Shown: piece after piece, positions 3,201 through 46,949 of the stretch
Layout of the letters: each line of letters begins with the position of its first letter
Numbering within the stretch: the first letter of the stretch is position 1
Source of the DNA: Fimbriimonadaceae bacterium
Lineage (GTDB): Bacteria; Armatimonadota; UBA10988
Direction: 5' to 3'
Length of the DNA: 64,000 bases
Assembly: GCA_020850355.1 (NCBI GenBank)
Contig: JADZEX010000028.1
Span: forward strand, 1 to 64,000
Translations under genes and position numbers: made by a program
Notes under the pieces: generated by a model
Databases searched by the model: none
Told to the model about the DNA's origin: nothing
The model's input: only the letters and a program-made list of their open reading frames with translations

Positions 3201-5123
3201 ATGCGACGTTGCTGGAGTTGGTTGGTGCTACTGACCGCCGCGGGGGCGGCGCTGGCCGAGGGCCCGGTCGCCTGGCGGGCGGCCGTCGAGCCGGCGGCGG
3301 TGCGGCCCGGCGAGGTGGCGGTGCTGGTGCTGCGCGGCACCTGCGAGCCGCCCTACCACATCTACGCGGTGGCCAAGAGCGACGGCGGCATGGTGTCCAC
3401 ATCGTTTGCGCCATCCGCCGGTCTGGAGCCGTTGGGCGGCCTCCGCGAGCCCCGGCCGAAGGAGTACTTCGACGAGGGCTTTCAGGTGATGGCCCTGGCG
3501 CATGAGGGCAGCGTCGTGTTGCGGCAGCCGTTCCGGGTGCCGCCGACGGCGCCGCCCGGCACGCTCAAGCTCGGCGGCGAGCTGACCTTCCAGGCCTGCA
3601 CCGAGACCAGTTGCCAGCGCCCGGCGACGGTGCCGCTGGCGGCCAGCGTGCGGGTGGTGGCGGGCGCCGTGCGGCCGGAGCTCCGCGAGCCGCCGGCCGA
3701 GACGCCCTGGGCCGTGACCGCCACGATGCCGCCGCCCGCGAGCAGCAGCAGCGGCGGCGCGCCGAGCCCCAACCCGGCCCCCGGTGAGGGCCCCACGGCG
3801 GCCGACCAGGCGCGCTCGCAGGGCCTCGGGCAGTTCCTCTTGGTGGCTTTCCTGGCCGGCTTCGCCGCGCTGCTGACGCCGTGCGTCTTCCCGATGGTGC
3901 CCATCACCGTCAGCTTCTTCACGAAGCAGGCCGGGGACAACGCCCGCAAGCGGGTCGGCCTGGCGGCGTCTTACGGGCTGGGGATTGTGGTGATGTACAC
4001 CACCTTCGGCCTGCTGCTGGCCGCCACGATGGGCGCCAGCGGCGTCCAGCGGATCGCCGCCAGTCCGGTGCTGAACCTCGGCTTCGCGGCGCTCTTCGTG
4101 TTCTTTGCGCTGAGCCTGTTTGGGGTCTTCGAGCTGCAGCTCCCGGAGCGCTGGGTCAATATCGCCAACCAGAAGTCCGGCGCCGGCGGGTACCTCGGCG
4201 CCGGGTTCATGGGCCTGACGCTGACCCTGGCGGCGTTCACCTGCACCGTGCAGTTCGTCGGCGGCGTGCTGGTCTGGGCGGCCAACGGCGAGTACCTCTG
4301 GCCGATTCTGGGGATGCTGGCGTTCAGCACGGCGTTCGCCCTGCCGTTCTTCCTGCTGGCGCTGTTTCCGCAGTACCTGGCGACGTTGCCACGCTCGGGC
4401 GGGTGGCTGGAGACCACCAAGATCACCCTCGGCTGGATCGAAGTCGCCGCCGCGGTGAAGTTCGTCTCGAACGCCGACCTGGTCTGGGGCTGGCGGATCC
4501 TCAGCCGCGAGCTGGTGCTGGGCCTCTGGGCGATGGTCGGCCTGCTGGTGACGCTGTACCTCGCCGGCTGGCTGCCGATGGGCCACGGCGCCAGCCACAT
4601 CGGCCGCGGCCGGCGGGTCACGGCAGGGGTCTTCGCGGCGCTCACGCTGTGGCTGCTGTGGGGCCTCAGCGGCGCGCGGCTGGCCCAGGACCTGGAAGCG
4701 CTGCTGCCGCCCGCCGACTACGGTCGCAACCCGCGCCTGGTCGCCCACGAGGCGTGGATCGAGGACCTCGACCAGGCCAAAGCAGCAGCGCGGGCCGCCG
4801 GGCGGCCGTTGTTCCTGGACTTCACTGGCGTGACCTGCACCAACTGCCGCTGGATGGAGCAGAACGTCTTCACCCGCCCCGAGGTCGCCGAGCGGCTCGC
4901 CAGGCTGACCCTGACCCGGCTCTACACCGACACCGGCGCCCGCCAGCGCGAGTACCGCGAACTGCAGGAGCGCGCGTATCAAACCGCGTCGCTGCCGTTC
5001 TACGCGGTGGTCACTGCCGACGGCCAGACCCTGGCAACCTTCGACGGCCTGACCCGCGACCCGGCGAAGTTCGTGGCGTTCCTGGACCAGGGCCTGGCCG
5101 GCGGCGGGGGCGGCGGCCGGTGA
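3201..5123 (+). CDS. dsbD: Thiol:disulfide interchange protein DsbD
   Basis: This 640-residue protein has all three parts of DsbD, which carries reducing power from cytoplasmic thioredoxin across the inner membrane to periplasmic disulfide partners. After a signal peptide (about 1-19) comes the periplasmic alpha domain with the Cys pair C133/C138 (CTETSC). A Gly/Ser/Pro linker leads to the CcdA-like membrane domain, with Cys228 in 'LLTPCVFPMVP' and Cys348 in 'FTCTVQFVGG'. The C-terminal thioredoxin domain has C546-T-N-C549. Length matches the family. It stands alone, divergent from the gene at 2539-3039 and convergent with the STAND NTPase. It is relevant to the MauE/thioredoxin operon 6 kb away as a possible source of periplasmic reductant. 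Confidence 0.92.
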   Translation: MRRCWSWLVLLTAAGAALAEGPVAWRAAVEPAAVRPGEVAVLVLRGTCEPPYHIYAVAKSDGGMVSTSFAPSAGLEPLGGLREPRPKEYFDEGFQVMALAHEGSVVLRQPFRVPPTAPPGTLKLGGELTFQACTETSCQRPATVPLAASVRVVAGAVRPELREPPAETPWAVTATMPPPASSSSGGAPSPNPAPGEGPTAADQARSQGLGQFLLVAFLAGFAALLTPCVFPMVPITVSFFTKQAGDNARKRVGLAASYGLGIVVMYTTFGLLLAATMGASGVQRIAASPVLNLGFAALFVFFALSLFGVFELQLPERWVNIANQKSGAGGYLGAGFMGLTLTLAAFTCTVQFVGGVLVWAANGEYLWPILGMLAFSTAFALPFFLLALFPQYLATLPRSGGWLETTKITLGWIEVAAAVKFVSNADLVWGWRILSRELVLGLWAMVGLLVTLYLAGWLPMGHGASHIGRGRRVTAGVFAALTLWLLWGLSGARLAQDLEALLPPADYGRNPRLVAHEAWIEDLDQAKAAARAAGRPLFLDFTGVTCTNCRWMEQNVFTRPEVAERLARLTLTRLYTDTGARQREYRELQERAYQTASLPFYAVVTADGQTLATFDGLTRDPAKFVAFLDQGLAGGGGGGR

Positions 5124-5228: not shown

Positions 5229-8200
5229 TCACTGCGGCGGCGGGTTCTCCAGCACCAGCAGGCCGACGTAGCCATCCGAACGGCCATAGGCCCAGACCGG
5301 GGCGGTCGGGCAGGCGCTGCTTGCGATACCTTCGAATCGAGCACAGGCCAGGACAGCCCCGTGACGGTTGACGAACCGATACTCGCCGTCCTGCCCGACC
5401 GCACACCAGGCGGACCGCGGGGCCGTCCACGACGGTGTCAACGGCCGGCCTGACGCTTGCGCCAACCGACACCAGGTGCTGGTGTCCCAGGTGAGGGCTT
5501 CTGCCCGGCCCGAGGTATCGAGGCGCTGGCCGTCGGGCGACCAGGCCACGTCCTCGACGCCTTCGGTGTGCTCGGCGAGGCAGTGCAGCTCGTCGCCGCT
5601 GGCGGCCTCCCAGACCCGCACGGTCTGGTCATATGACCCCGAGGCGAGGAGCTGTCCGTCGGGCGACCAGGCCACGCTGTTGACCGAGCCGGTGTGCCCG
5701 GTGAGGCAGGGCAGCTCGGCGTCGCTGCCGGCCTCCCAGACCAGCAGGGTCTGGTCAAATGATCCGGAGGCGAGGCGCCGGCCGTCGGGCGACCAGGCCA
5801 CGCTGATGACCCAGCCGGCGTGCCCGGTAAGGCGGTGCAACTCGGCGCCGCTGGCGGCCTCCCAGACCCGCACGGTATGGTCCTCTGACCCCGAGGCGAG
5901 GCGCTGGCCGTCGGGCGACCAGGCCACGTCCGCGACGCCTTCAGTGTGTCCGGGGAGGCAGTGCAGCTCGTCGCCGCTGGCGGCCTCCCAGATCCTCACG
6001 GTCTGGTCCTCTGACCCCGAGGCGAGGCGCTCCCCGTCTGGCGACCAGGCCACGCTGTTGACCGTTGAGGTGTGCGCAGTGAGGCAGTGCAGCATGTCGC
6101 CGCTGGCGGAGTCCCAGACCCGCACCGTCTGGTCCCAGGACCCGCCAGCGAGGCGCTCCCCGTCGGGCGACCAGGCCACGCTCCTGACGCCTGCTAAGAC
6201 GCAGACCAGTTCGTCGCCGCTGGCGGCGTCCCAGACCCGCACGGTATCGTCGTAGGACCCCGAGGCGAGGCGCTGGCCGTCGGGCGACCAGGCCACGCTG
6301 TTGACCGCTTCGGTGTGCTCGGCGAGGCAGTGCAGCTCGTCGCCGCTGGCGGCGTCCCAGATCCGCACAGTATGGTCCTCTGACCCCGAGGCGAGGCGCT
6401 CCCCGTCGGGCGACCAGGCCACGCTGTTGACCGGGCGCGTGTGCCCGGTGAGGCAGGCCAACTCGGCGCCGCTGGCGGCGTCGCAGATCCGCACGGTCTG
6501 GTCAAATGACCCCGAGGCGAGGAGCTGGCCGTCGGGCGACCAGGCCACGCTGGTGACCGCCCAGGTGTGCCCGGTGAAACAGGCCAACTCGGCACCGCCG
6601 AGGGGGTGCTTCGGCGGACGGCCGGCGCGCAGCCAGGGCTGGCCCCCATGGGCGGCGCGGTGGCGCTCCAGCCAACTGCTGAGCCGCGGTTCCGGCCGCT
6701 CCCAGGGCGGGCCGGCCGGGCCCCAGCCGCCGGCGGGCGGCTGGTAGTGCGTCGCGGCTGCGGCGCAGTCGTACCACCAGGCCTCGTTCCAAACACACTG
6801 CCACAGGCTCTGGGGGTAGTCGTGCCGGTGACGGTCCAAGAACGTCAGGTGCCGCCGCACCGCCTGGGCCAGCAGCCGCAGGTTGAGGCGCCAGGGATGG
6901 TCAGCCGGCAGGGCGGCCGAGGCGGCCAACAGATCGCTGCCCAGCGCATGGACCTGCCCGTCGCGGTGCCGCGCTTGGAGGTGGGGGTAGTCGGTACACA
7001 ACTCCACCAGCCGGTCGGCCCATGGGGTACTGCCGGCCGGCCGCTGACACCAGCTTGCCGGCGCCGTGCCGGCAGTCAGGGCGATCAGGTGACGAGCGGT
7101 ATGCCGCAGCGCGTAGTCGGCGCGGTGGCACTCGCCGCGGCACCAGTCGAGCAGTTGGTGGAGCCCCGCCGTGGCGGCGTCCTGGTGCGCCACCAGTGCC
7201 GCGTCGTCGGCGACCACCTGTTGGAAGGCCTCGGCCAGGGCCGGGTGGTCCAGCGCCCAGAGCACTTCGCTGGCCTCGACATGCCGCCGGATCCAGCGAC
7301 TCACCAGCGGCGCCGGCCGGTGATTCGCGGCGTCCGGCAGCACTTCACGCACTGCGGCGCTGGGCAGCGGGCCGCGAGCGGTCAGCAGCAGGTAGAGCAG
7401 CGGCAGGCCCGGCTGGTCGGCGAGCTGATCGAGGTGCCAGACCAGGTACTGCCGGAACCCCTCCGGCAGTTGGTCCAACAGGCCGCGCGCCGCCTTCAGC
7501 ACGGCGTCGTCGGCCGCGTCGGCCGGCACCGCCGCGGCCAGGTCGCGCAGCAGGTAGTGCAGCAACAGCGGATAGCCCTGACAGCGCTCGTGCAGTTGCC
7601 GCAGCAGATCGTCGGCCGACGCCAGGGGGCCCAGGCTCGGGTGCTGGCCTAACCAGTGCGCCAGCGCCGCGAGCGGCAGCGGCCCCAGCGGCGGCGTCAA
7701 GCGGTGCGGCTGGAACGGGTGGTCTGGACTGGCGGCGAGGGGGAGGTGAAACGGCTGCTCGCCGTCTCGGGCCCGCACCGAGAGGATCACGTGGACGCCG
7801 TCCGGCAGTTTCCGCGGCAAGGGCAGGTGGCTGGTCTCCTGCCGCTCGTCCAGCGCATCGAGCTGCAGTACCAGCCGCTCGCCGGGCCGCGGGCCCTGGG
7901 CCAGCAGCCCACGCAAGAGGTCGGCGAGCTGCGTCTCGTCGGCGGCCGCCGGCGTCAGCAACCGCCAGGCGTCCTGGTCGTCGTTCAGGTGGTAGGCCAG
8001 CAGTTGCGCGCTGAGGTGGGCATAGGCCGAGGCGCTGGCAGCGAGTGTCGAGTCGGTCGTGCGGAAGTAGTGCGCCACCACCGTGGTCGACGGCAGGCGC
8101 CGTGGCAGCTCCCGCTGCAGGTCGGCCAACAGCGCGGTCTTGCCGAAGCCCGCCCGCGCCGCCACCAGCAGATGGCCCGATGGGCTCTGCTTCAGCCAGG

Positions 8201-9134
8201 TCACCACGGCGTCCGATTGCTCCTCGCGCCCGACGCAGGCGGGGTAGTCGGCGAGCAGGTTGGCGGTGGCGGTGCGCACACCCAACTGCGCGTAGCGTTG
8301 GTGCAGCGGCAGGCGTTGCAGCGCCACGGCCACCTGCTGGCGCACCGCCGCAGCCTCCACGTCGCTGAGCGTCTGGCCCGCGGCCACCGCCTCCAGCAGC
8401 CGCTGGCGGCAGACCGCCTCGGCAGGTTCGGCCAGCGCCTGCAGCACGCGCTGCAGGTCCTGATGCTGCACAATCTGGGCATAGGTCAGGAACTTGTCGC
8501 GGGCGTCGGGATCGCTCAGCAGCGCCTGCACGAAGGAGGTCTGCAGCGCGCCGACCAGCGTCGGTCGGAGGTCATTTAGGGCCGCTTCGATGGTCGGGGC
8601 ATGGTCGACCGGCCCGCGGTCGGCCGCCAGGCCGCGGAGTCCAGGCCGCAGTTGCTCCCAGAGGGTCTCGGCGGCGTTGTCGAGGACCGCCCTGGTCAGC
8701 TCCACCCCGCTGGCCGCGGCGCCCTTGGGCTGACCGAACAGCTTTTCCAGGCGATCGTTTGTGCGCTTGCTATGGGTGTCGAGCGCCTTGAGTTGCTGCT
8801 TCAGATGCGCGCGCACCCGACTGACTTGGTCCTGGTCACGTGTCGCCGGGATCGCCGCCGCCGCGGCGCGGACCAGGGCACGGGCCAGGTTGTGGTTGAA
8901 CTGCTGGCGGACTTGCGCCTGCCCGTTGGCCCACACCGACTTGGCGAGGTCCAGCCCGACATCTGGCGCCATGCCGGCGACGGCGTCGGTCAAGAGGCGG
9001 GCCAGCGGCCCGGCGGCCGCCGCACCGACGGCCAGGCCCAGCGCCGGTCCCAGCAAGGCGTAACCGGTCAAGGCCGCCCCGCCCCACAGCAGGGCGCGCG
9101 GTCCGACGCCCTCCAACTCCGCCGTTAGCCGCAT
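5229..9134 (-). CDS. STAND/NACHT-like NTPase with WD40 repeats
   Basis: This is a 1301-residue regulator of the STAND class, ATP-driven switches in which C-terminal repeats sense a ligand and the NTPase oligomerises to activate an N-terminal effector. The N-terminus has a Gly/Ala-rich hydrophobic stretch (about 12-55) that could enter membranes, then a helical region. The P-loop is 'ARAGFGKTALL' (GKT at about 331-333) and the Walker B is 'LVLQLDALDE' (about 421-430). Residues about 846-1218 hold eight WD40 repeats plus a degenerate ninth. Start: ATG 9134 has a purine-rich GAGAGGGG upstream; an in-frame GTG at 9209 would add 25 residues and cannot be excluded. Family knowledge supports roles in antiphage defence, programmed death or signalling; the precise role here is unknown. 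Confidence 0.85.
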   Translation of the reverse strand: MRLTAELEGVGPRALLWGGAALTGYALLGPALGLAVGAAAAGPLARLLTDAVAGMAPDVGLDLAKSVWANGQAQVRQQFNHNLARALVRAAAAAIPATRDQDQVSRVRAHLKQQLKALDTHSKRTNDRLEKLFGQPKGAAASGVELTRAVLDNAAETLWEQLRPGLRGLAADRGPVDHAPTIEAALNDLRPTLVGALQTSFVQALLSDPDARDKFLTYAQIVQHQDLQRVLQALAEPAEAVCRQRLLEAVAAGQTLSDVEAAAVRQQVAVALQRLPLHQRYAQLGVRTATANLLADYPACVGREEQSDAVVTWLKQSPSGHLLVAARAGFGKTALLADLQRELPRRLPSTTVVAHYFRTTDSTLAASASAYAHLSAQLLAYHLNDDQDAWRLLTPAAADETQLADLLRGLLAQGPRPGERLVLQLDALDERQETSHLPLPRKLPDGVHVILSVRARDGEQPFHLPLAASPDHPFQPHRLTPPLGPLPLAALAHWLGQHPSLGPLASADDLLRQLHERCQGYPLLLHYLLRDLAAAVPADAADDAVLKAARGLLDQLPEGFRQYLVWHLDQLADQPGLPLLYLLLTARGPLPSAAVREVLPDAANHRPAPLVSRWIRRHVEASEVLWALDHPALAEAFQQVVADDAALVAHQDAATAGLHQLLDWCRGECHRADYALRHTARHLIALTAGTAPASWCQRPAGSTPWADRLVELCTDYPHLQARHRDGQVHALGSDLLAASAALPADHPWRLNLRLLAQAVRRHLTFLDRHRHDYPQSLWQCVWNEAWWYDCAAAATHYQPPAGGWGPAGPPWERPEPRLSSWLERHRAAHGGQPWLRAGRPPKHPLGGAELACFTGHTWAVTSVAWSPDGQLLASGSFDQTVRICDAASGAELACLTGHTRPVNSVAWSPDGERLASGSEDHTVRIWDAASGDELHCLAEHTEAVNSVAWSPDGQRLASGSYDDTVRVWDAASGDELVCVLAGVRSVAWSPDGERLAGGSWDQTVRVWDSASGDMLHCLTAHTSTVNSVAWSPDGERLASGSEDQTVRIWEAASGDELHCLPGHTEGVADVAWSPDGQRLASGSEDHTVRVWEAASGAELHRLTGHAGWVISVAWSPDGRRLASGSFDQTLLVWEAGSDAELPCLTGHTGSVNSVAWSPDGQLLASGSYDQTVRVWEAASGDELHCLAEHTEGVEDVAWSPDGQRLDTSGRAEALTWDTSTWCRLAQASGRPLTPSWTAPRSAWCAVGQDGEYRFVNRHGAVLACARFEGIASSACPTAPVWAYGRSDGYVGLLVLENPPPQ
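5480..6599 (-). repeat. Tandem WD40-coding repeats, about 126 bp each
   Basis: Eight 42-residue units and a decayed ninth share the core 'VAWSPDG.(R/L)LASGS.D.TVR(I/V)W(D/E)AASG'. Similarity extends to the DNA, where blocks such as the codons for SVAWSPDG recur almost unchanged. Unit four is about four residues shorter and lacks the usual GHT turn. The hypervariable positions lie just before SVAWSP and at the residue before D.TVR. Confidence 0.9.
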
Positions 9135-9218
9135 CGCCTGTGCCCCTCTCACGACAGGTAACTTCAGAAAGGTTGCGCCGAATCCTGCCACCGCCCGCCG
9201 CCTCACCACCGCGGCCGT

Positions 9219-10811: not shown

Positions 10812-12329
10812 ATGGGTTGGGTGCGAACCGGTCGCGACCACGCCGCAAGTCTCGCTCGGCTATTCCTATCCGGCGTCCTCCTGGTTGCTGTGATCGGGAA
10901 GATGCCGGACATTGCGCCGCTTACAGCCAACCTGGTGTCAGTTGGTATCTCACCAGGACTGGTAGCGCAGGTTGCTGCCTGGGCCCTCCTAGTCGCCGAG
11001 GTGGTGCTTGCCGCGGCGGTCTGGCGCGCGCGATGGGCAAGGCAAGTCTCCTGCTGCGGCTTGCTCCTGACAGGCGCTTTCGCAGCCTCGACGCTGCTTG
11101 GACTGCTGCGAGGAGCGCCGGCCGACTGCGGCTGCTTCGGTTTCCTGGTGCGCCTTCCGCCGTGGGCCTCGCTGCTCCTTGACCTGGCGCTCGCCGCGGC
11201 CTTCTGGCGCCTCGGCCGCTGGCGCCTGGCGGTCGTTGGCCCGGCTCGGGCAACTGCAGCCAGACCCGATGGCGCCCTGGTCCGGCTCGGGTCGATGGCC
11301 GTCCCGGTAGTTGCCGGAGTGGTCCTCTTGCTCTCGCTGGCGTACCTGCCACCGCGCCCCGGGCGAGATGGCCCGACTGGCAGACAGCCGGATCGCCACC
11401 GTTGGCTGGTCGGCTCCGTACTCCGCCACCTACCGCTGGCCGACGCCACCGGGGCGGCCACCGATGTCGCGGCGCTGCGCGGGAAGTGGCATCTGCTCGT
11501 CCTGGCCCTGCCCGGCTGCGAGCCTTGCGATCTGGTCGGCGCGGCGGCCCGAGCGGCACGGACGGTATCTGGCGATGGGCTGGCCGTCTGGTGTGTCTAC
11601 CCGAAGCCGACCTTCCCTGGCCGTGGTCCGAGGTGGGCCGACCGCGTCCTGTATGACCGCCACGGCGAGTTCACAGCTGCCAGCTTCGCCAGCACGCCCC
11701 GGTACCCGCTTGCGATCCTCACGGATCCCGACGCCGTCATCCGGCAAGTTATGGACGGCGTCATCGGCGACGCCCAGCAGCTCAAGGCCGAGTTCGCATC
11801 GTGGGGGAGGCGCGCGCCGATCAAGGAATCCGGCGGTCGCCCGGTCCAGATTCTGGTCGACCGTCCGGCTCCGCACCAGCCGCTTCGCGTGACGTCGCCG
11901 CGACGCAGCACGCCGGGTGTTGAGATCGTAGCGTTCTTGAGTCCAGCCTGTCGAAGCTGCGAACGCTACCTCGCGGCTGTCCAGGAGCTCGCTTCGCGGC
12001 AAGCCGGTCTGGCCATTCGGGTGATCACCGCCTCGTCGCGCCAGGCTGACGCTCTCCGTCAGAAGCTGGCGGTAGCACCGCCCAACCTGACACTCCGCCC
12101 GATGGCACTTGAAGAGCGCCAGCGCTGGGCCGTGTCGGGTGTACCAGCGGTCTATGTGTTGGGGGCCGGTCGAGTGCTGTTCGCGAGCGACACCCAGACT
12201 CAGGGCCTAGAACTCACGCTGGCGGCCCAACAGGCTCTGGCGCGCCAGTCCGGACGAGAGCGACAGGCCATCGCCGGTGTCGCTCCCATCGTATCCTCAC
12301 GAGAGCCACTGCAAGGGACAACACCATGA
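10812..12329 (+). CDS. MauE/DoxX-type membrane protein fused to two thioredoxin-like domains
   Basis: In this 505-residue protein residues 1-140 form a four-helix MauE/DoxX redox-associated membrane domain with the diagnostic D-C106-G-C108-F-G. A fifth membrane helix (about 162-180) leads to two periplasmic thioredoxin-like domains. The first has C236-E-P-C239 after 'WHLLVLALPG'. The second has C380-R-S-C383 after 'VEIVAFLSPA' and a later 'VSGVPAVYVL' cis-Pro motif. In methylamine dehydrogenase operons, MauE and the separate thioredoxin-like MauD are needed to fold the six-disulfide MauA subunit; here both functions seem fused. Start: ATG 10812 follows GGGGAG closely. Its stop overlaps the next start (ATGA), tying it to the Cys/Trp-rich peptide. 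The operon is visibly more A/T-rich than its surroundings. Confidence 0.85.
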   Translation: MGWVRTGRDHAASLARLFLSGVLLVAVIGKMPDIAPLTANLVSVGISPGLVAQVAAWALLVAEVVLAAAVWRARWARQVSCCGLLLTGAFAASTLLGLLRGAPADCGCFGFLVRLPPWASLLLDLALAAAFWRLGRWRLAVVGPARATAARPDGALVRLGSMAVPVVAGVVLLLSLAYLPPRPGRDGPTGRQPDRHRWLVGSVLRHLPLADATGAATDVAALRGKWHLLVLALPGCEPCDLVGAAARAARTVSGDGLAVWCVYPKPTFPGRGPRWADRVLYDRHGEFTAASFASTPRYPLAILTDPDAVIRQVMDGVIGDAQQLKAEFASWGRRAPIKESGGRPVQILVDRPAPHQPLRVTSPRRSTPGVEIVAFLSPACRSCERYLAAVQELASRQAGLAIRVITASSRQADALRQKLAVAPPNLTLRPMALEERQRWAVSGVPAVYVLGAGRVLFASDTQTQGLELTLAAQQALARQSGRERQAIAGVAPIVSSREPLQGTTP

Positions 12330-12640
12330 AGAAGCTCTGGATCGCGCTGACCTTCGGGATGGGCCTCTGGACAACGGCAGCGACCGCCGAGACGTGCCTT
12401 TGTTGCTGGGATGGTGGGCGCCAACAGAACGTTGATGACCAGTGGTGGTGCCGTCAAGTCGAGGATGACTGCAATGGCTGGCTGCCGTTCGACAACAACT
12501 GGTGGTACAAGCGATCGGTTCGCCTCTGTGAATGCGAGGACGCCACAGTCTGCTACGAGTGTGGTGATTGGTACCCGGCCGAGTGGTTTGAGAGCCAGTG
12601 CTGCATGACTGCCCTCACCGAACCAAACTGCCAGCTCTAG
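12326..12640 (+). CDS. Secreted Cys/Trp-rich small protein, candidate client of the MauE/thioredoxin fusion
   Basis: This 104-residue protein has a clear Sec signal (MKKLWIALTF..TAATA, cleavage after about Ala21). The mature 83 residues hold 12 cysteines (24, 26, 27, 42, 49, 68, 70, 76, 79, 92, 93, 102) and 8 tryptophans (28, 40, 41, 52, 59, 60, 82, 87). An even Cys count in an exported protein implies up to six disulfides. I recognise no family. Its position, translationally coupled (ATGA) to a MauE-thioredoxin fusion, parallels MauA, which has six disulfides and a Trp-Trp-derived cofactor; that parallel is inference and no sequence homology to MauA is claimed. No MauG-like dihaem enzyme is visible nearby. 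Local GC is about 55% (counted over 12421-12480). Confidence 0.8.
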   Translation: MKKLWIALTFGMGLWTTAATAETCLCCWDGGRQQNVDDQWWCRQVEDDCNGWLPFDNNWWYKRSVRLCECEDATVCYECGDWYPAEWFESQCCMTALTEPNCQL

Positions 12641-12697: not shown

Positions 12698-13333
12698 TTG
12701 CGACCTCAAACAGGCCCGCCGCCAAGCCGCGCCGGCCGGTTGCCGGCGACGGCGGGCTTCACGTTGGTCGAACTGCTGGTGGTGCTGGCGATCATCGCCG
12801 TCCTGGCCGGCCTGCTGCTGCCGGTTTGGGCGAGCGCGCAAGACCGTGGACGCCAGGCGGACTGCACCAGCCATCTGCGGCAGCTCGGGCAGGCCTACGG
12901 GATGTACCAGCAGGACTATGACGACGACCGGCCGAACAGCCTGCTCTGTCTGGCCCCGCGCTACTTGCCGCCAGCTCTGTTGGTCTGTAGCAGTGACCCA
13001 AACCGCCACAGCCTCGGCTGGGGTGGTCACATGGCGGCCTTTGAGGAGTACCCCAGTGACCCGCGGCGACCAGTCAGCTACGGCTACTTCAGCATTGTCT
13101 TCCGCGATCCCGGCTGGGACCAACTGCGGCGGACCACCGGCCGACCTGGGTACGCCGTCTGCGTCACACACGGCGAGACCACCGGCCGCGGTCCGCGCCC
13201 GGTGCTGTACTACCAAGGACTGGTCCTACGGCTCTGCTTTGACGGCAGTGTCGTAAGGCGACAGGTTCGCCGCCCCAACCAAAAGTACTACGAGGCACTG
13301 ACCGGCGACGGGCCGGTGGATTGGTGGCCCTAA
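12698..13333 (+). CDS. Divergent type II/IV pseudopilin-like protein
   Basis: This 211-residue protein has a prepilin peptidase site and N-terminal helix: 'AGFTLVELLVVLAIIAVLAGLLLP'. Conserved family traits follow ('LRQLGQAYGMYQQDYDDDRP', 'LLVCSSDPNRH'). The usual [13 protein letters not shown] segment is replaced by 'VWASAQDRGRQADC', and the C-terminal DG motif reads 'LRLCFDGSVVRRQVRR' instead of H-X9-DG followed by VK. Start: TTG 12698 is chosen because GGGAGG at 12684-12689 is well spaced and the next in-frame start lies inside the helix. As third gene of the mauE-like operon it may form part of an export or surface assembly for the Cys/Trp-rich protein (inference). Confidence 0.75.
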   Translation: MRPQTGPPPSRAGRLPATAGFTLVELLVVLAIIAVLAGLLLPVWASAQDRGRQADCTSHLRQLGQAYGMYQQDYDDDRPNSLLCLAPRYLPPALLVCSSDPNRHSLGWGGHMAAFEEYPSDPRRPVSYGYFSIVFRDPGWDQLRRTTGRPGYAVCVTHGETTGRGPRPVLYYQGLVLRLCFDGSVVRRQVRRPNQKYYEALTGDGPVDWWP

Positions 13334-13335
13334 CG

Positions 13336-13728
13336 ATGCATCCCCGCTTCACAGCAGCGATCGCAACGGGTGGTCTGGTGGCTGTCTGTGCAGCCGTCAA
13401 CGGCGCCGTCGCAATGGGCCTGATGGTGACATGTTGCCACCTCAGCAGCTTCCAGAGTGTGCAAGCCGAGGTTGTCCTGAATCTCGCGCAGGGCTTGGTG
13501 CAGGGCACTTGGGGTGGCTGGCAGCGGCACTCGCCACGGCGCTGCGCCTGCTTGATGGCCATCGTGCGTAGCGCCTTGGCAGCTGGTTCCTGCCTGCTCG
13601 ACCTGGTCGTTCAGGGCCGGTACGCGGCCAGCAATCTGCCCCTGATTGCCGTGAGTGTCCTTGCCATCTTGCTGGCCGGCTGGGGCGGCCTGACGCTGGC
13701 GCAGCGGCTGGGCGTCGGCGAGGAGTAG
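13336..13728 (+). CDS. Small integral membrane protein, last gene of the mauE-like operon
   Basis: This 130-residue protein has about three predicted membrane helices (about 9-30, 77-92 and 103-123) and a charged loop containing 'QRHSPRRCAC'. It has Cys residues in or near the helices ('VTCCHLSS'). No family is recognised. The ATG at 13336 lies two bases after the stop of the pseudopilin gene; an in-frame TTG at 13321 would overlap it. The tight spacing assigns it to the same transcript. A hairpin terminator follows at 13761. Confidence 0.6.
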   Translation: MHPRFTAAIATGGLVAVCAAVNGAVAMGLMVTCCHLSSFQSVQAEVVLNLAQGLVQGTWGGWQRHSPRRCACLMAIVRSALAAGSCLLDLVVQGRYAASNLPLIAVSVLAILLAGWGGLTLAQRLGVGEE

Positions 13729-19907: not shown

Positions 19908-20648
19908 ATGGCGCATGTCAAGCGGCGCGCTGGGTTCACCCTCATCGAGTTGCTGGTGGTGATCGCCATCATCGCGATTCTGGCGGCGATTCTGTTCCCG
20001 GTCTTTGCCAAGGCTCGCGAAAAAGCGCGGCAATCCACTTGCCTGTCGAACAACAAGCAGATGGGCCTGGCAATGATGCAGTACATCCAGGACTATGACG
20101 AGACCTTCCCCGCGTCGGCCGAGACCGATGAGATCTGGCCGTTCTGGATCTCGTCGTACATCGGCGGTCGGCCGCAGAACTGGTCCGGCCAGCGCGGCAA
20201 CATCTACGTCTGCCCCAGCAACCTGCAGGGCATCACGGTGACCGCCTCCAAGCTGAACATCTACGCCGCTGCCGTGGCCGGCTGGGGCATTACGCCGAGC
20301 GGGTCGGGCGATTACCTCTACCACTGCTCCTACTCGCTAAACGACGCGACGATCCCCGAGACGACCGGTGGGTCGGCGGCGCTGGCGGCCTGGATCAGCC
20401 CGGCGGAATGCTATCTGTTTCTGGAAGGCACCGGTGAAGCCGACATCGACAGCAATGATGTCGACCTCGAGGACAACGAAGTCTTTGTCGGCCACAATGA
20501 AGGCATGAACGTCACCTACATCGACGGGCATGTGAAGTGGCTCAAGGACTCGCGCGTGCCGACCGACAATGCCATCTACGACGGCCAGGGCTCGCCGGTC
20601 TACTATCGCGACGACAACACGGCGCGTACGCCGTGGAACTGCCGCTAG
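19908..20648 (+). CDS. Prepilin-type H-X9-DG domain protein
   Basis: This 246-residue protein has a prepilin peptidase site and helix ('[19 protein letters not shown]') followed by '[20 protein letters not shown]'. The C-terminus has the H-X9-DG motif ('[18 protein letters not shown]'). Such proteins are abundant in planctomycete-like and armatimonad genomes and are thought to be type II secretion or pilus-like minor pilins, though most have no assigned role. It starts 118 bases after ppk with AAGGAG well placed. A long GC hairpin follows. Confidence 0.85.
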
Positions 20649-33170: not shown

Positions 33171-33815
33171 CTACCGGCGATCCCACTGGGCGCGGGCGTC
33201 GCCGTAGGGGTACTGGAAGCCCAGCGAGCTGACCTTGACCGCCTTGGCGTGGCCGTCGGCGAAGGCGACGTCGGTCATCTCGTTGTGGCGTGGCGTGACC
33301 CGCACCGGGTTGGTGTCGTACCACGGCGTGTTGGACGGGCAGCGCCAGACCGTGCTGGTGGTGTTGCTGTCCTGCCAGGCGTCGGGGTTCGGCTCCGCCG
33401 GATTGGGGATCAGCGAGCAGTCGGCAAAGACGGCCGTCTCGGCGGTCGCCTGGATGTCGGCCAGCGCCGGGCCGCCGCCGCGGTAGACACCCATCTCGGG
33501 GTGGTTCATGCCGATCCCGCCGGTGGTCTTGCTGGGGCACTGGTAGATCTGGCGGTTCTTGGCGTACGGCTGCAGCAGGTCAGTCCACCAGTACTCGGTC
33601 GGGTCGCACCAGACCGACAACGAAACGTACCGCTCGTCGTAGTCCTGGCAGTACATCATCGCAGCGTTGCCGATCTGCTTGAGGTTGCTGACGCAGGACG
33701 ACTGCCGCGCCTTCTCGCGGGCCTTGGCGAAGACTGGGAACAGAATCGCGGCCAGAATGGCAATGATCGCGATCACGACCAAGAGCTCGATCAGAGTGAA
33801 CGCTCGTCGTTTCAT
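33171..33815 (-). CDS. Prepilin-type H-X9-DG domain protein
   Basis: This 214-residue protein has the standard prepilin start '[18 protein letters not shown]', then '[20 protein letters not shown]' and C-terminal '[20 protein letters not shown]'. A Cys in 'IYQCPSKTT' matches others of the family. ATG 33815 is preceded by GGGAGGGAT, partly inside a small ATCCC/GGGAT stem. It probably acts as a minor pilin or secreted surface protein. Monocistronic. Confidence 0.88.
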
Positions 33816-44988: not shown

Positions 44989-45801
44989 TTACGGCGCCCA
45001 GGTCCCAGCGGCCATCGTGAAGTTGCAGAAGGGGCTGTAGAGCCCGGACGGGATCTGCACGAAGAGGTCGCTCACTTTGACGGCCTTGCCATGCCCGTCG
45101 GCGTAGGCGACGTTGGCCATGTCGTTGTGCCGGTCGCCGCGGCGCTGGTCACCGGGCGGCAGATTGAGGCCGATGCCGACATCGTCCCCACCACCGAGCG
45201 GTCCGCTGCCGAAGAAGCGCAGCGGATTGTCCGATCCGTCGACCATCGGGCAGACGCCCCAGCTATCCATCACCAGGTAGGTCGTCGCCGGGCTCTGCAT
45301 CGTGTCGGCGTTGCGGTTGTCGTTCTTGCTGGTGCTCCAGGGCGCCCGGGTCTTGCAGATGCCCTCGTAGTTGAACCCGTAGTGGCCCCAGATCTCACGG
45401 ATCGGCAGACCCCCGACGGTGTTCACGTAGCGCGGGGCGTTGCGGAAGTTCTGGTCACCGCTGGGGCAGAAGAAGACCTGGCTGTTCTTGACGTAGGACA
45501 GCCAGACCGTCTGCCAGTAGTAGGCCTCGGCGTAGCCGCGGTTCGGCACCGCCTCGCCCAAGACGTTCTGCCCGATGTTGCTGGCCGAGCTGGCGGCGCG
45601 GCTGAGGAAGCCCTCGTAGTCTGAGGCGTACATCAACGCCGCCTTGCCGATCTGGTTGAGGTTGGACAGACACGACGCCTGTCGCGCCTTCTCCCGCGCC
45701 TTCGCGAAGACCGGGAACAGGATCGCTGCCAGAATCGCGATGATCGCGATCACCACCAGCAGTTCAATCAACGTGAAACCAAGCCGTCGTGAGGCTCGCA
45801 T
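44989..45801 (-). CDS. Prepilin-type H-X9-DG domain protein
   Basis: This 270-residue protein has '[18 protein letters not shown]', '[20 protein letters not shown]', a middle Cys in '[10 protein letters not shown]' and the C-terminal '[20 protein letters not shown]'. It is third in a row with a small membrane protein and another prepilin gene (46875-44989), with short gaps, so the three are probably one operon. It is probably a minor pilin or secretion-linked surface subunit. Confidence 0.87.
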
Positions 45802-46182: not shown

Positions 46183-46875
46183 TTAGTCCATGTCCCAGTA
46201 GCTGTTGAGGCTCGGGTTGGCCGGTGCCGGGTTCGTCCCGCCGACCGCGGTGTAGCCGGCGTTGCGGCTGTCGTCCATGAAGTTGCTGAAGCCCAGCGGC
46301 TTGACGTGGCCGTCGATCCAGAGGATGTTGGCCAGGTCGTTATGCCGGTCGCGGGGCCGGGTGCTCCAACCGTTCGCCGGGCCGCCGCGTCCGCCGCCGC
46401 AGTAGTAGCCGTCGCCGTCGGTCAGCAGAATCGTCTCCGCCGGCAGCTTCACGCCGTCCATGAACTGCACGTTGGCGAAGTTGGCGAAGTAGCGCCAGTT
46501 GTAGGCGTACCCCCCGTCGTTGCCGTACGACGAGTTCGGCCGGACCTGCGCCGCCGACGGGCAGATCAGCACCTCGGGGCTCTTCATGTACGGGTAGAGG
46601 TGGTCGGCCCAGTCGGCGCGCGCTCCGGCGCGCCATGGGATCGCCGCGGGAATCGACCCGCCGATGGCGCAACTGACTGCCATCCGGTCGTAGTCGTCCC
46701 AGTACATCGCAAAGCTGATCCCGATCTGCTTGAGATTCGACTGGCAGGACGACTGCCGCGCCTTCTCACGCGCCTTGGCGAAGACCGGGAACAGGATTGC
46801 AGCCAGAATCGCGATGATGGCGATCACCACCAACAGCTCGATCAGCGTGAAGCCACGCCGCCTGCACGTGCCCAT
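46183..46875 (-). CDS. Prepilin-type H-X9-DG domain protein
   Basis: This 230-residue protein has '[18 protein letters not shown]' and '[20 protein letters not shown]', a Cys in '[10 protein letters not shown]', and '[20 protein letters not shown]' near the end. ATG 46875 has GGAGGGA nine bases upstream and a CGGGCCA/TGGCCCG hairpin just before that. First gene of the three-gene pilin-like operon. Confidence 0.87.
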
Positions 46876-46949
46876 CGTTGCGTCCCTCCGGGCCAACTGG
46901 CCCGTCCAGGACGATAGGCTCGCGGTGTTCTGACGGGGCGATCAACCGG

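Follow-up and report, generated by a model that had tools for sequence, protein, structure and literature searches.

The operon and its genes

The window analyzed here, a stretch of 64,000 nucleotides from a Fimbriimonadaceae bacterium, contains four genes that follow one another on the same strand with short gaps between them, and that are presumably transcribed together. These genes and their main features are as follows.

10812-12329, + strand: MauE-thioredoxin gene (putative fusion), ORF of 505 aa
10839-11201, + strand: MauE membrane domain, residues 10-130, matched by PF07291
11127-11141, + strand: CGCFG motif, residues 106-110, within the MauE domain
11517-11528, + strand: CEPC motif, residues 236-239, in the first CxxC region
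11949-11960, + strand: CRSC motif, residues 380-383, in the second CxxC region
12326-12329, + strand: ATGA stop/start overlap of the MauE-thioredoxin and Cys-rich genes
12326-12640, + strand: exported Cys-rich protein, ORF of 104 aa
12698-13333, + strand: dedicated pseudopilin, 211 aa, TTG start, five Cys
13336-13728, + strand: small membrane protein of 130 aa with three hydrophobic segments (predicted)

Judged by its sequence, the 505-aa protein is certainly a member of the MauE family: PF07291 matches it at 5.5e-15 with 56.3 bits, against a curated cut-off of 27, which confirms the ORF and MauE domain that an earlier note on this DNA had described, and the CGCFG, CEPC and CRSC motifs were all located. 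That note had read the protein as a MauE-double-thioredoxin fusion, and here the MauE part stands while the thioredoxin domains are weaker than claimed. In profile searches the CRSC region matched PDB 2m72 at E=0.0044 and Thioredoxin_3 at 0.06, both weakly, and the only match of the CEPC region was one to AhpC-TSA at 0.27, with no PDB match. AlphaFold2 was confident in the MauE membrane part only: pLDDT stayed under 50 over nearly all of both thioredoxin stretches, though the second showed a thioredoxin-like order of elements. Two fused thioredoxin domains are plausible from the CxxC motifs and the weak similarity, but are unproven by profile or model.

The ATGA overlap at the end of this gene suggests that its translation is coupled to that of the Cys-rich gene. 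We assigned the signal peptide of the Cys-rich protein by eye to residues 1-21, with cleavage after ATA, and on that assumption the mature protein is 83 residues long and contains 12 Cys and 8 Trp, with two WW pairs among the latter; both the overlap and this composition are, on inspection of the sequence, as the earlier note gave them. A double-glycine leader is absent from the window protein. Its predicted fold is a small beta meander of moderate confidence (AF2 pLDDT 75, pTM 0.58), and a Foldseek search of the model against the PDB gave no match at E <= 0.001. As a single query the protein matched nothing in genome contigs, plasmids, Pfam or NCBIfam, and its PDB matches were all at chance level; single-sequence searches gave nothing firm, and the window protein has no known close relative.

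A divergent family of Cys-rich proteins in Armatimonadota

A single-sequence search of 291 Armatimonadota genomes returned weak matches for the Cys-rich protein (E 0.002-1), and among those that were translated most were spurious and two were real exported Cys-rich proteins. These two seeded a profile, with further sequences drawn from the neighborhoods of the matches, and the family profile was built from five core sequences and then from twelve, each round finding further members. Profile searches of this kind, which the earlier note had proposed for the 104-residue protein, show that it is not an orphan but belongs to a divergent family across Armatimonadota in which Cys positions are conserved. 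Scored against a profile built without it, the window protein reached 24.6 bits, and the best of 2000 composition-preserving shuffles reached 5.2. With a held-out score above the shuffles, and with a pseudopilin and a membrane protein as neighbors, the window protein is a member of this family. The same note had named loss of the Cys positions in homologues as evidence against its proposal; the relatives found by profile keep the Cys pattern, beyond chance.

The near-invariant core of the family reads C-x2/3-C, WC, C, R, C, C-G-x-W, CC, C, and the positions invariant in the twelve-sequence alignment are, in window numbering, C27, R63, C70, C79, W82, C92 and C93. W82, the Trp of CGxW, is the one invariant Trp; W41 is retained in most sequences, and the WW pairs are unconserved. 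The alignment has no conserved His. One family member is found in CP054189.1, a Chthonomonadaceae MAG, and as a query against genome contigs it matched that record alone. The first filter of the family search passed no more than 18 candidates from each genome on to scoring, which limits recall, and little can be read into a genome that shows no member.

A dedicated pseudopilin is the constant partner

The gene that follows the Cys-rich gene encodes a prepilin-like protein, with the cleavage motif G^FTLVE at residues 20/21 and a match to N_methyl (PF07963) of 29.2 bits against a cut-off of 21.2; with the GspG major pseudopilin model TIGR01710 it scores 37.6 bits, below the cut-off of 88.85. This gene and the one for the small membrane protein, at 12698-13333 and 13336-13728, had both been overlooked when the operon was first described, yet they belong to the cassette. 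A pseudopilin gene follows the Cys-rich gene at 28 of 28 family loci, starting within about 0.65 kb, with the proviso that the 28 loci are not independent, because some are close relatives; they comprise 25 with a profile E <= 1e-3, while the other three, namely L181, L185 and the locus of the second Cys-rich gene in L025, are weaker. At most family loci a further gene, placed between these two or behind them, encodes a small membrane protein of roughly 120-200 aa. The order in most cassettes is Cys-rich gene, membrane protein, pseudopilin, and in the window and a few others it is Cys-rich gene, pseudopilin, membrane protein. By position, the protein at 13336-13728 corresponds to the membrane protein of 119-196 aa in other cassettes.

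The pseudopilins themselves form a subfamily. In an alignment of 13 of them, chosen as the clearest, the positions C, Y, C, G, G, C, H, G, R, D and S are invariant, and this pattern is less well kept in the pseudopilins of more divergent cassettes. A subfamily profile from which the window pseudopilin was left out gives it 63.7 bits; in the phylum search its match stood at 3.8e-38, with its own sequence among the 13 rows of the profile. Like the pseudopilins of type II secretion and type IV pili and the DUF1559-like pilins, these proteins have a prepilin cleavage/methylation motif and an H...DGS C-terminal pattern; what sets them apart as a subfamily of their own is the conserved Cys and C-x2-H-G and the tie to a partner gene for a Cys-rich protein. 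In a reverse search from the subfamily, several more of its pilins proved to have a Cys-rich ORF upstream, and at other subfamily pilins none was recognized. Fimbriimonas ginsengisoli has 79 PulG-type pseudopilin genes among 4820 ORFs (PMC4072686). Generic pseudopilins are indeed common in such genomes, but their rate does not explain a partner at every locus, and the constant partner of the Cys-rich family is a dedicated pseudopilin, not MauE.

More pseudopilin-like ORFs, with weaker subfamily matches, lie elsewhere in the window at 19908-20648 (+), 33171-33815 (-), 44989-45801 (-) and 46183-46896 (-). At two loci, L086:9145-10197(+) and L021:6698-7780(-), a single ORF spans both the membrane protein and the pseudopilin, and the prepilin cleavage site falls in the middle of it.

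MauE genes and their Cys-rich neighbors

The earlier note had asked whether homologues of the Cys-rich protein always follow a MauE-thioredoxin gene, and had counted homologues found without that redox partner as a refutation. None of the other family loci showed such a gene: the window is the only locus at which a MauE match adjoins a Cys-rich family gene, two of the family loci being near contig ends, where the upstream gene could be missing. Since no other family locus has an adjacent MauE match, the cassette need not include the MauE-thioredoxin gene.

Viewed from the MauE side, a secreted Cys-rich gene lies directly 3' (<200 nt) of 16 of the 28 CxCFG-type MauE genes inspected in Armatimonadota, against 0 of 48 other MauE/DoxX genes (0/19 other DoxX-like, 0/29 strongest MauE). 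The Fisher p of 2.8e-9 for this comparison marks a clear trend rather than an exact probability, because relatedness is ignored and the criteria were adjusted after a partial run: the cut-off on signal-peptide hydrophobicity was lowered from 1.9 to 1.6, as the window's own signal peptide had failed it, the motif class was widened, and L096 was dropped because it repeats the L110 locus, the two genomes being nearly identical. A general coupling of MauE to secreted Cys-rich genes in the phylum is supported by these counts. Many of the Cys-rich neighbors of CxCFG-type MauE genes belong to other Cys-rich families, and some are then followed by a C39 peptidase.

Operons of the latter kind, which end in Peptidase_C39 (PF03412 over cut-off), were seen with the peptidase at L104:1086-1550(-), L128:890-1528(-) and L087:7152-7646(+). 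Their peptidase gene comes after a further exported protein, and their Cys-rich proteins have an L[ST]xxEM...G-rich stretch that resembles a double-glycine leader. Another MauE-linked Cys-rich protein, L115:1759-2172 (+), gave a sub-threshold BufA2 match over its N-terminal part (22 bits, cut-off 60).

The window genome has two MauE matches, and these fall at the same two loci as its two dedicated-pseudopilin matches (11 of 120 pilin candidates scored). The second MauE-thioredoxin gene (G000:C30) has no Cys-rich gene beside it, and 58 nt separate it from a membrane-pseudopilin ORF that belongs to the same subfamily. In this assembly, which is 95% complete, neither DsbB nor VKOR has a model match, which makes the MauE-thioredoxin proteins candidates for disulfide formation. 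MauA (PF02975) is likewise without a match in the 95% complete assembly, and so is the MNIO enzyme (PF05114) in this genome. We rejected a bufferin reading of the Cys-rich protein on the missing MNIO match, and a reading based on TTQ, the tryptophan tryptophylquinone cofactor of MauA, on the missing MauA match.

Discussion

On balance we lean towards a four-gene operon in which an oxidative-folding enzyme has been joined to a cassette of a Cys-rich protein and a pseudopilin. The MauE-thioredoxin protein would be a membrane thiol oxidoreductase, with MauE as its electron-accepting membrane part and the fused thioredoxin domains as a periplasmic oxidase or isomerase, and it would form the disulfides of the Sec-exported 12-Cys protein and possibly also those of the Cys-containing pseudopilin. 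The pseudopilin and the small membrane protein might serve to export the Cys-rich protein once it is folded, or to anchor or display it, perhaps by way of the cell's machinery for type II secretion or type IV pili. Going by the association of the genes only, the MauE-thioredoxin protein probably makes the disulfides of the Cys-rich protein; we infer disulfide formation itself and the direction of electron flow, as well as export or display through a pilus-like machine. The constant pilus-like partner points to an undescribed kind of disulfide-rich protein that is secreted or displayed on a pilus. A wider scheme, in which such surface systems occur across the phylum, each disulfide-rich protein with its own pseudopilin and membrane protein, and in which the MauE-thioredoxin gene was recruited privately in this lineage, is possible rather than probable. 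The dedicated oxidative folding system proposed in the earlier note is plausible in light of the neighbor counts and of the two MauE-thioredoxin genes that adjoin the same kind of pseudopilin, and is weakened by the absence of MauE at the other family loci.

If true, that wider scheme would describe a device, tied to a pilus, by which disulfide-rich proteins are exported or displayed. Pseudopilin genes are very numerous in Armatimonadota, and the pairing of one subfamily with Cys-rich genes offers a testable function for some of them. The findings also support a general role for MauE in forming the disulfides of exported Cys-rich partners, one not confined to methylamine dehydrogenase.

Several known systems bear a resemblance to this one. 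Paracoccus requires both MauE and MauD to metabolize methylamine (as cited in PMC7794033), and the arrangement in Paracoccus denitrificans shares with ours a MauE and a periplasmic thioredoxin-like part beside a small multi-Cys exported protein; here, in contrast, the two parts appear fused into one protein, MauA was not found in the genome, and the client comes from an unrelated family. The closest published precedent is the set of candidate clusters that decRiPPter found in Streptomyces, where a MauE gene, once together with MauD, stands beside precursors with at least 8 Cys (PMC7794033). Those clusters likewise pair a MauE gene with a gene for a small Cys-rich protein but belong to another phylum, and the cited passage mentions no pseudopilin. 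Bufferin (MNIO) clusters with DoxX (PMC12452194) also place a signal-peptide-bearing Cys-rich small protein beside a DoxX/MauE-like membrane protein, and some clusters there, like some of the present cassettes, include sigma factor genes; they differ in that this genome has no MNIO match and the window protein matches no bufferin family in Pfam or NCBIfam. A search covering part of the literature found no paper on the Cys-rich/pseudopilin cassette.

Other readings of the locus are possible. The Cys-rich protein, pseudopilin and membrane protein could be the functional unit, with the MauE-thioredoxin gene as a recent or accidental neighbor that serves general disulfide formation. We consider this unlikely: it would fit the cassettes without a MauE match at every other family locus, and with no DsbB or VKOR in the genome both MauE-thioredoxin proteins could be general oxidases, but the ATGA overlap speaks for a closer tie, as do the dedicated pseudopilin beside both MauE-thioredoxin genes of the genome and the preference of CxCFG-type MauE genes in the phylum for secreted Cys-rich neighbors. 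It is more doubtful still that the cysteines bind metal and are kept reduced by the MauE-thioredoxin protein, which would make the Cys-rich product a secreted metal-binding or metal-buffering protein. Disulfides are the more usual state in small exported proteins with 10-12 Cys in such a pattern, the family alignment offers no conserved His, and the genome has no MNIO match; the CxxC-like and CC motifs and the DsbD-like gene at 3201-5123 of the window would suit a metal-binding role, as would the DoxX genes that accompany copper-chelating bufferins (PMC12452194).

It is improbable that the redox enzyme matures the Cys-rich protein as a peptide of bacteriocin-like or RiPP type, an idea that draws on the C39 peptidase in other MauE and Cys-rich operons of the phylum and on the MauE clusters among the decRiPPter candidate RiPPs (PMC7794033). 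No peptidase, modification enzyme or ABC exporter was recognized among the genes examined around the operon, the window protein has no double-glycine leader, and the partner of its family is a pseudopilin. We attach next to no weight to the Trp-derived cofactor, as in MauA with its tryptophan tryptophylquinone, that the earlier note had raised: MauE is present and there are 8 Trp in 83 residues, but the idea is unsupported when W82 alone is invariant, the WW pairs are unconserved and MauA was not found in the genome.

Some observations concern the surroundings of the operon and of its relatives. In some lineages the gene immediately before the Cys-rich one is of the sigma-70/ECF type (L085:6693-7427(-), L175:4383-5105(+) and L178:4320-5423(+)), and in L178 the sigma factor and the Cys-rich protein read as a single ORF. 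In the window, the DsbD-like thiol-disulfide gene is on the + strand, 5.7 kb upstream of the operon, and an ORF of 1326 aa at 5229-9209 (-) has a long C-terminal run of WD40 repeats, its best 25 Pfam matches all being beta-propellers.
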